The translations under genes and the position numbers were made by a program. Shown piece after piece: positions 12,316-43,473 of a stretch of DNA of 64,000 bases; position 1 is the first letter of the stretch; the number at the start of each line of letters is the position of its first letter. Origin of the DNA: Mycobacterium florentinum (lineage in GTDB: Bacteria; Actinomycetota; Actinomycetes; Mycobacteriales; Mycobacteriaceae); the NCBI RefSeq assembly GCF_010730355.1, contig NZ_AP022576.1:4030001-4094000 (forward strand), in the 5' to 3' direction. The notes below the pieces were generated by a model. The model searched no databases, had not been told where the DNA came from, and saw only the letters and a list, made by a program, of their open reading frames with translations.

Positions 12316-15300
12316 TCAGCGCTGCGTCACCCTGGAGTGCAGGTACAGCCTGAGTTGTTCGCCGTACGAGCTGAGCGAATCGGCGGTGAGCATCTCGAGG
12401 TGCGTGCTGTCGACCGAGTACGTGGCGATTTCGCCGCCGACATACGGCCGCCAAAGCCGTTGCTGGGACCGAGCCGCCCGGCCGGTTCGCAGTCCGCGCC
12501 ACCGTGTCCGTCCTCGCTCGTTCTCGTTTCTTCCCCGGGCCGCGGCGAAGATGACCATGTCGCCGTCGAACACCCCGGGCACGTGGTCCAGCAGATGCAG
12601 CTGGTTCGTCTTGACGCTGTGCACCATGAGCTCGAGTAGCCGCTGGGGCGGCAGCGGGAAATCGGCCCCGTGCTGTTGCACTAGTTCCTCGGCCCGCAGG
12701 TAGTTCAGCGGCTCGGACTGCTCGGGGATGTCGATCCGGTTGGTCCGCAACAGGTGTACCAGGAGGTGGCTTTCGTCCAGCGTCTGATTCTTTGCGGCGG
12801 CCCGGTTGGCGCTCAGTTTCGCGATGAACTTGCTGGCGCTGAATACCGGGTCGATCAGTACCAGGCTCTGGACAACCTGCCCGCGTCGCTGCAGCTCGAT
12901 CGCGAGTTCGTGGGCGACGACGCCGCCGAAGGACCAACCGAGCAGCCGGTAGGGCCCCTCGGGGTAGCGGGCTTGGATGCGGTCCGCGTAGTTTGCCGCC
13001 ATCCCGCGAATCGACACCGGCTCGGCTTCGCCGTCCTGCGAGATCTGGTTGATCCCGATGATCGGGCAATCGACGTACTCGCCCAGCGCGCGATACGACC
13101 AGCTCAGTCCGAGGCCGTCGTGAATGCAGCACAGCGGAGCGCCGGTGCCCTCCTGGAACACCTCGACTCCGACCACCTCCGAGGCGCTGTCCTGCGTGCC
13201 GAGCTGTTCGCTGAGATTTCTCACCGACGGGGCGTAGAACATGGTCCGTACCGGAAGGTGAACATTGAGGGCCGCGTTGACCGCGGCGATCACCCGCATC
13301 GCCGAGAGCGAATCGCCACCGAGGTCGAAGAAGGAGTCGTCGACCCCGACCCGGTCGATCCCCAGCACCCGCGCGTAGATGCCGGCGATGACCTGCTCGG
13401 TATCGGTGCGCGGGGGCTGGAAGGGCGTGGCGGCGAACACCGGTGCCGGCAGCGCCTTGCTGTCGATCTTGCCCGACGAGGTCAACGGGAACTCCTCGAG
13501 CACCACGATCTGAGCCGGCAACATGTACTCCGGCAACCGCGCGCTCAACTGCTGGCGCACCGCGCTTACCTCCATGTTCGTGTTCGGGTTGTTGGCGTGG
13601 GCGCCGCGCTGGTGCGCGTCGGTGCGGGGCAGATAGAGGTCGGTCAGCGCGGCACCGGCGGAGATGAGGAAGACGGCGTCCAGGGTGCCGGGCTCGGCAC
13701 CCCAGGTCACCGCGACGTGGTAGCCGGCGTTTTCACCAAGGCGGTGCAGCTGTTCGGGCGTGACGCTGTCGGGGGCCGTCGCGGGCGGGATCAGCGCGTC
13801 GGCCAGGGGCAGCCCGTCGGCCAGCGCGTGTTCGATGCGGACGTCGCCGACCAGTCCCGCGCGCGGGATATCGGCGACGCGCACGGTCGGGGGACGTAGC
13901 GAGGCCAGCCGGGAGTGCAGGCCGAGCAGGCCCGCGCATTCGGTCCAGGTCCAGGTGGGTGCGGTGGCCATGGACCGTACCGGGGCGGGGGTCTTGCGGA
14001 TGACGACGTCGTAGCGGTACCGGTTGAGTTCGTTGTCGGCCAGTCCGCGTTTGACTTGGATGTCGAGTCCGGCCGCCGCCGCGTGACGGTCGGCCCAGGT
14101 GGTGAAAAAGTCTGGCGCCAAAAGCAATTCGGGCTCGCTGACCACGGCGCGGTGGACCCGTTGGCGGATCTCGGCCGCGTCGGCGGTGGTGGTACGGGCG
14201 AGCGCGACCCCGGTTTGGAAGGCGTCCTGCAGGGTGTGGTTACGGATGTCGCCGAGGAACACCGCGCCGCCCGGTGCGAGCAGCTCCATGGCGGTGTCGA
14301 TCAGGTCGGCCAGGTATGCCGCGTTCGGGAAGTACTGGACGACCGAGTTGACGATGATGGTGTCGAAGTAGCCCTGCGGCAGCCCCTCGGTGACGTGGGC
14401 GGGCCGGGCCAGCAGCTCGACCCGATCACGCCACGGGATCCGCAAGTGCTCCAGCGAGCGCGCGAGGTTGTCGATCACCACCGCCGACATGTCGGTGGCG
14501 ACATAGCGCTCACACTGCGAGGCGATCTGCGACAGCAGCAGCCCGGAACCGGCGCCGATCTCCAAAACTCGCCGGGGCCGCAGGGCCATGATCCGATTCA
14601 CCGTGGCCGCACGCCACTCGAACATCTCCTCGAGCGGAATCGGCTCCCCGGTGTAGCTGCTGTTCCAGCCGCGGAAGTCCATGCCGAATTGCGGTACTCC
14701 GTCGTGTCCGTCGTACAGGTCGTCGTACAGGCCCTGCCACTGGCCGACGATTTCGGCGTCGTGGTCGGCGGTGCTGGTGCGCCGCAAGGTGATGTACGCG
14801 ACGAGGTTCTCGCCGGCATTGCCGTGATGCACGCTGGTGACGGCCTGGGTGACCTCCGGGCACGCGAGTAGCGCGCTTTCGATTTCGCCGAGTTCGATGC
14901 GGTAGCCGCGGATCTTGACCTGCTCGTCGGCGCGCCCGACATAACGCAACTGCCCGTCGGCGCCCCACGACACCAGATCCCCGGTGCGGTACATCCGTGC
15001 TCCCGGTCCGCCGAAGGGGCAGGCCAGGAACCGGGACGCGGTCAGGTCCGGCCGGCGCACATATCCGTCCGCCAGCCCGGCGCCGGCCACGTACAACTCA
15101 CCGACCACCCCGACCGGCACCTGGCGTAACCACTTGTCCAACACGAAGAACGCCAGATGCGCCAGCGGCTCGCCGATGGGGCTGATAGTGCTGTCTACGT
15201 CTCCGTCGACGAGTTCCCGGAACGAGGCGTGCACCGTCGTCTCGGTGATGCCGTACATGTTGATCAGTCGCGGCGACCCCGGATGACGTTGCAGCCAGGT

Positions 15301-43473: not shown

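Follow-up and report, generated by a model that had tools for sequence, protein, structure and literature searches.

A probable one-protein assembly line for an acylated Leu/Ile octapeptide ending in N-methyl-threonine in Mycobacterium florentinum

The window, a 64,000-nucleotide stretch (positions 4,030,001-4,094,000) of the 6.22 Mb single-contig genome of Mycobacterium florentinum, contains a large nonribosomal peptide synthetase (NRPS) gene whose single protein probably assembles an N-acylated (Leu/Ile)7-N-MeThr octapeptide, a putative envelope lipopeptide. The most likely core, in which acylation, residues, configuration and location are all predictions from the gene, is acyl-L-Leu-D-aIle-L-Ile-D-Leu-L-Leu-D-Leu-L-Leu-N-Me-L-Thr. 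The enzyme is most likely a variant of the mycobacterial acyl-octapeptide synthetases, with a product that has not been described so far. This gives a mass-level prediction of an undescribed lipid from opportunistic mycobacteria, acyl-(Leu/Ile)7-N-MeThr, for which we computed a signature of seven MS/MS steps of 113.084, a C-terminal residue of 115.063 and an [M+Na]+ of 1213.912 for the C18:0 acid form, among acid and methyl-ester masses for C16-C24 chains; sugars or acetyl groups would move these values.

Table 1. Position of the NRPS gene, its domains (bounds approximate) and the two genes flanking the insertion site, in window coordinates.
Feature	Position	Strand	Basis or remark
SRPBCC gene, one flank of insertion site	11767..12312	+	
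Whole NRPS gene	12316..43473	-	10,385 aa from ATG at 43473
C1, acyl-starter condensation domain	42229..43470	-	bounds and clade in domain tree
A1, DFWTLGAIYK, predicted Leu (least certain Leu call)	40675..42081	-	aligned code
C2, LCL type	39091..40386	-	domain tree
A2, DFWTVGVMWK, predicted Ile	37528..38943	-	aligned code
E2, epimerase	36001..37251	-	domain tree, motifs
C3, after-E (DCL) type	34615..35835	-	domain tree
A3, DFWTVGVMWK, predicted Ile	33052..34467	-	aligned code
C4, LCL type	31468..32763	-	domain tree
A4, DFWTLGAVYK, predicted Leu	29911..31317	-	aligned code
E4, epimerase	28399..29634	-	domain tree, motifs
C5, after-E (DCL) type	27028..28233	-	domain tree
A5, DFWTLGAVYK, predicted Leu	25465..26877	-	aligned code
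C6, LCL type	23866..25173	-	domain tree
A6, DFWTLGAVYK, predicted Leu	22306..23715	-	aligned code
E6, epimerase, HHLAVDA	20797..22032	-	domain tree, motifs
C7, after-E (DCL) type	19420..20631	-	domain tree
A7, DFWTLGAVYK, predicted Leu	17860..19269	-	aligned code
C8, LCL type	16255..17568	-	domain tree
A8, portion preceding methyltransferase, DFWSVGMVHK, predicted Thr	14710..16104	-	aligned code
N-methyltransferase inserted in A8	13579..14748	-	Pfam, motif
C-terminal thioesterase, GWSFGG	12319..13164	-	Pfam, motif
Amidase_3 gene, opposite flank of insertion site	43979..44752	-	

The reading frame is open throughout and its GC content by codon position (0.71/0.48/0.84) is that of coding sequence, which bears out the stand-alone NRPS of this length proposed in a sequence-only reading of the window; an alternative TTG start at 43491 would give 10,391 aa (12316..43491, minus strand). 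A Pfam scan of the protein in three pieces yielded the families Condensation, AMP-binding, AMP-binding_C, PP-binding, Methyltransf_12 and Thioesterase, and a motif scan found 8 adenylation (A) domains, 8 FFDLGGDS carrier motifs, 11 HHxxxD motifs and one motif each for the N-methyltransferase (NMT) and the thioesterase (TE). Eleven of the 33 Condensation matches in the closed genome fall in this frame, by their order 8 condensation (C) and 3 epimerase (E) domains. The architecture is thus eight C-A-T modules with E after modules 2, 4 and 6 only, the NMT within A8 and a terminal TE, as the same reading had it; eight modules with a TE at the end are, by module number, the organization of the lipooctapeptide synthetases of the GL8P or MAC type. 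HHxxxD and EGHGR are kept in all three epimerases, and the HHLAVDA of E6 is no sign of inactivity because the E domain of the D-Leu module of GL8P has HHLSVDA. The C2, C4 and C6 domains are mutually 76-78% alike and A4-A7 are 74-78% alike, a pattern that duplication of module pairs would produce. The GC content is 0.67-0.69 throughout the gene, which rules out recent foreign DNA by composition.

We typed the condensation domains in a tree built on eight sets of synthetases, with 83 of their 84 C and E domains, a short E piece of the MAC-type genome G220 being omitted. All eight first C domains, C1 of the window among them, formed a starter clade (support 1.0); C3, C5 and C7 fell with one terminal C domain of GL8P in the after-E clade (support 1.0), C2, C4, C6 and C8 in an LCL clade that held 32 of 32 (support 0.84), and the E domains made up a separate group. 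The three epimerases are thus followed by C domains of the matching types, so that the order acyl-L-D-L-D-L-D-L-L is observed for the C types and predicted for the configuration of the residues, in agreement with the low-complexity octapeptide of alternating configuration proposed before. The acyl-starter C1 had been overlooked in that proposal and turns the predicted peptide into a lipopeptide: the product should be N-acylated, since C1 belongs to the starter clade of the GPL, GL8P and MAC-type synthetases. The products of such systems include GL8P (PMC11978893) and L5P (PMC8103206), both described as N-acylated, and the GPLs, which are N-acylated and carry 3-hydroxy/methoxy acyl chains in mycobacteria (PMC3537567). 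Fortuitine is a further N-acylated product of this kind of system. In a second family of eight-module NRPSs (10,021 and 10,032 aa; G065, L088-L089 and G102, L092-L093) the L-D-L-D-L-D-L-L order recurs with different residue codes.

Read from a single alignment, the A-domain codes were DFWTLGAIYK in module 1, DFWTVGVMWK in modules 2-3, DFWTLGAVYK in modules 4-7 and DFWSVGMVHK in module 8, and every code of the earlier hand reading proved correct. These codes point to Leu, Ile and Thr only, rather than to eight unrelated residues. The assignment follows from codes shared with a lipooctapeptide system whose product has been solved chemically: NMR gave the sequence T-A-F-I-Y-L-T-T for GL8P of M. 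abscessus, an octapeptide that is N-stearylated and in which Marfey analysis showed D-allo-Thr, D-Phe and D-Leu (PMC11978893). In three genomes (G088, G092, G243) a hexamodular NRPS and a bimodular one follow the GL8P order, with E at 1, 3, 6 and 8, and these genomes were matched to GL8P by this architecture; in G088 the locus lies about 580 kb from an Mps1-like ORF, the corresponding distance in M. abscessus being 600 kb (PMC11978893). In all three of these architecture-matched loci DFWTVGVMWK is the code of the Ile module and DFWTLGAVYK that of the Leu module, identical to the codes in the window. This gives the genus a calibration, DFWTLGAVYK for Leu and DFWTVGVMWK for Ile; for the Leu module of GL8P the predictor used by the GL8P authors had assigned Thr (PMC11978893). 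In the MAC-type G220, DFWTVGVMWK occupies position 3 and module 2 carries an NMT, and L5P has Ile at position 3, N-MeVal at 2 and L-Ala at 5 (PMC8103206). This check on Ile is weak, since the eight modules of G220 do not tally with the five residues of L5P, nor its E after module 5 with the L-Ala at the fifth position.

Thr had also been proposed for the last code, with an N-methyl-Thr end, and code, segment similarity and NMT agree with it. One published list includes DFWSVGMVHK with the codes for Thr, although N-Me-Thr is mentioned in the same sentence and codes and residues are not clearly paired one by one (PMC12283262). The NMT is 66% identical to that of module 2 in G220 and 56-61% identical to the NMTs of G012. 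Similarity over the whole specificity segment favours Thr for module 8, Ile for module 3 and Leu for modules 4, 5 and 7; for module 1 (Phe 74, Leu 72), module 2 (presumed Val and Ile both 76) and module 6 (Phe 73, Leu 72) it is neutral or speaks slightly against the assignment. The codes of the GPL-like synthetase in the same genome read as expected for Phe, Thr, Ala and Ala. Among orthologues, all eight codes are identical to those of the window in G110 and G277, all but one position of module 1 in G217 and all seven read of the eight modules in G235; position 331 of module 1 varies between Y, I and M. Six codes were read in G031, where modules 2 and 3 are of the Leu type. It is unlikely that Val, Thr or a mixture of residues is the substrate of some DFWTLGA(I/V)YK modules and that the core is less uniform, a view to which the segments of modules 1, 2 and 6, the variable position 331 and the published Thr prediction lend some weight. 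Against it stand the identity of the codes with those of solved Leu and Ile modules and the difference from what we presume, on the structure of fortuitine, to be the Val code, DYWSMAGVYK; Val is disfavoured for DFWTLGAVYK.

A starter domain of at least 75% identity to C1 was found in at least 11 of 297 genomes of the genus, the next among the matches listed being at most 69% identical. The frame is full-length in five of these carriers, cut by contig ends in two (G132, G173) and interrupted in four (G031, G076, G164, G250). Over the last 900 residues the nearest named relatives are M. ahvazicum (86%), M. genavense (84%), M. montefiorense (81%), Mycobacterium sp. 1100029.7 (76%) and M. sherrisii (74%), which we take to be the M. 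simiae group. Ten of these 11 carriers also have an ORF of 3,437-3,445 aa with a 62-64% identical starter domain, presumably Mps1, that of M. florentinum being the one read; the corresponding ORF in G076 is 4,489 aa long.

The interrupted frames, to which draft assemblies may add errors, could mean that the gene is decaying and has no product. In the drafts of the relatives, the M. genavense copy (L003) is in eight collinear pieces with changing frames and three stops in the last 4.2 kaa, that of M. montefiorense (L002) has one frame change and that of M. tilburgii (L069) is a remnant. We consider decay very improbable for the gene here, since the frame is open across 31 kb here and in G110, G235, G277 and G217, the motifs are intact, and dN/dS between full-length copies is 0.17-0.20 (0.167, 0.176, 0.178 and 0.201 for the four orthologues compared, at 78-90% identity). 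Two of the three species M. genavense, M. tilburgii and M. montefiorense are fastidious organisms.

The gene sits between converging SRPBCC and amidase genes. In a search of 61 relatives, the SRPBCC gene was matched in 33, the amidase gene in 44 and both on one contig in 31 (on different contigs in G001 and G036). The gap between them is 2-102 bp in 29 of these 31 genomes, 31,672 bp in G000 and 24,054 bp in G031. The sister gene at the same site in G031 (L127-L128), with six A codes and a frame change between its ORFs, is 7,618 bp shorter, against 7,602 bp for an L-D module pair. The empty site in 29 of 31 genomes and a sister shorter by about one module pair make this a clean case of the arrival of an assembly line and of a change in its length. 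The downstream neighbours are as in the window at six loci (L001-L005, L069). Some rapid growers (L023, L025, L028, L029 from about 3,060, L031 from about 2,385) have other large NRPS genes beyond recR, near the same SRPBCC-recR block, in the order D-residue, N-methylated residue, Ile code, Phe-type code and D-Ala-type.

No mmpL, glycosyltransferase, MbtH or other accessory gene was recognised among the scanned flanking ORFs. Across the genome, MbtH genes were found at two sites only, 1.116 Mb and 5.618 Mb; one adjoins the Mps1-like ORF, and that at 5.618 Mb is taken to be mycobactin-associated. The GPL-like locus has an MmpL gene nearby. Membership of a GPL or GL8P locus was rejected on the lack of a cluster and the different core.

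In the biosynthesis we propose, C1 would attach a fatty acyl chain to the first residue, as its clade suggests; modules 1-4 would add Leu, Ile (epimerised, with D-allo-Ile expected), Ile and Leu (converted to D), and modules 5-8 Leu, Leu (converted to D), Leu and Thr. The Thr would be N-methylated while enzyme-bound, after which the TE would free the chain. Acyl activation, an MbtH partner and export would be supplied in trans, for which the GPL-like locus of M. florentinum is a possible source. By analogy with the other mycobacterial synthetases with a starter C domain, the product is most likely a cell-envelope lipopeptide.

The TE could also close the same core as a macrolactone, joining a 3-hydroxy-acyl hydroxyl to the carboxyl of N-Me-Thr in the manner of the peptidolipins of Nocardia, which are lactones. 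Nocardia produce peptidolipins (PMC11364655), mycobacterial GPLs have 3-hydroxy/methoxy acyl chains (PMC3537567) and the TE is at the protein end. We hold a macrolactone to be improbable, given that the nearest solved product, GL8P, is N-stearylated with a glycosylated hydroxyl on its C-terminal Thr (PMC11978893).

The strict L-D alternation over seven residues is a logic shared with the linear gramicidin synthetase LgrA-D, and LgrA gave the best PDB matches for the first 830 aa. The sequence-only reading had suggested a possibly membrane-active peptide, on the ground that alternating L/D chains form helices able to span membranes. Linear gramicidin, however, is a 15-mer with a formyl start and reductive release, whereas the synthetase here has an acyl start, eight modules and a TE; a starter C domain takes the place of the formylation start and no reductase was found. 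A gramicidin-type beta-helix of eight residues would be about half as long as gramicidin A, too short to span a membrane, and the channel was rejected on length. As related systems produce envelope lipids, a gramicidin-like membrane-spanning or antibiotic peptide is most improbable. It is conceivable, if rather doubtful, that the strictly alternating aliphatic chain, with its long acyl tail and single polar N-Me-Thr, takes on a folded or stacked D,L-beta structure in the outer membrane of mycobacteria. The envelope lipopeptide would then be self-assembling, with selection on backbone stereochemistry and not on side chains.

The earlier statement that no mycobacterial product of this pattern was known needs amending: octapeptides are described from mycobacteria, namely GL8P of M. 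abscessus and one from a rough M. avium (PMC11978893), neither of them with this core in the descriptions consulted. The exact codes were not found in the PMC literature, which is no proof of unpublished status. Among the PMC matches listed, none concerned N-methyl-threonine from a mycobacterial NRPS, by title or start of abstract, none such a lipopeptide in the simiae group, and the mycobacterial matches for lipooctapeptides or fortuitine all concerned M. abscessus.

Among the known systems, fortuitine is an N-acylated nonapeptide of M. fortuitum, aliphatic-rich and N-methylated, with Val and N-MeLeu in the stretch Val, N-MeLeu, Val, Val, N-MeLeu, Thr, Thr, Ala. It differs from the predicted product in its nine residues, and the fortuitum-group loci read have no E domain. 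The NRPS codes of L026, L030, L014, L016, L018 and G012 (L139-L140), from the fortuitum group and other species, fit parts of this structure, with G012 departing at positions 7 and 9, and these genes are possibly those for fortuitine. The GPL synthetase Mps1/Mps2 of M. florentinum itself (L072) has a starter C1 63% identical to that of the window, but four modules with codes for Phe, Thr, Ala and Ala, clustered with MbtH and MmpL genes. The Thr-type segments of its module 2 and of L073, which belongs to another NRPS cluster (2.18-2.20 Mb), appear to be the same throughout the part compared, which suggests gene conversion between clusters.

The MAC-type system of G220, together with that for L5P of M. 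avium subsp. paratuberculosis, has in common with the synthetase here the starter C1, the Ile code at position 3 and one N-methylated residue, and is unlike it in being Phe/Ala-rich, with N-methylation at position 2 and E at 1, 5 and 7, and L5P in being a pentapeptide. L5P is a serodiagnostic antigen and GL8P affects virulence. The GL8P synthetase, MAB_4691c/MAB_4690c, is clustered with mmpL, glycosyltransferase and MbtH genes (PMC11978893). It resembles the synthetase here in its eight modules, acyl-starter C1, C-terminal Thr and Ile and Leu codes, although its core is not matched, with codes that differ at seven of eight positions and a shared Thr code at the eighth. It consists of two clustered genes, with D-residues at 1, 3, 6 and 8, polar and aromatic residues and no N-methyl group in the reported structure, whereas here one lone gene stands for predicted D-residues at 2, 4 and 6, a predicted aliphatic core and a predicted N-Me-Thr.
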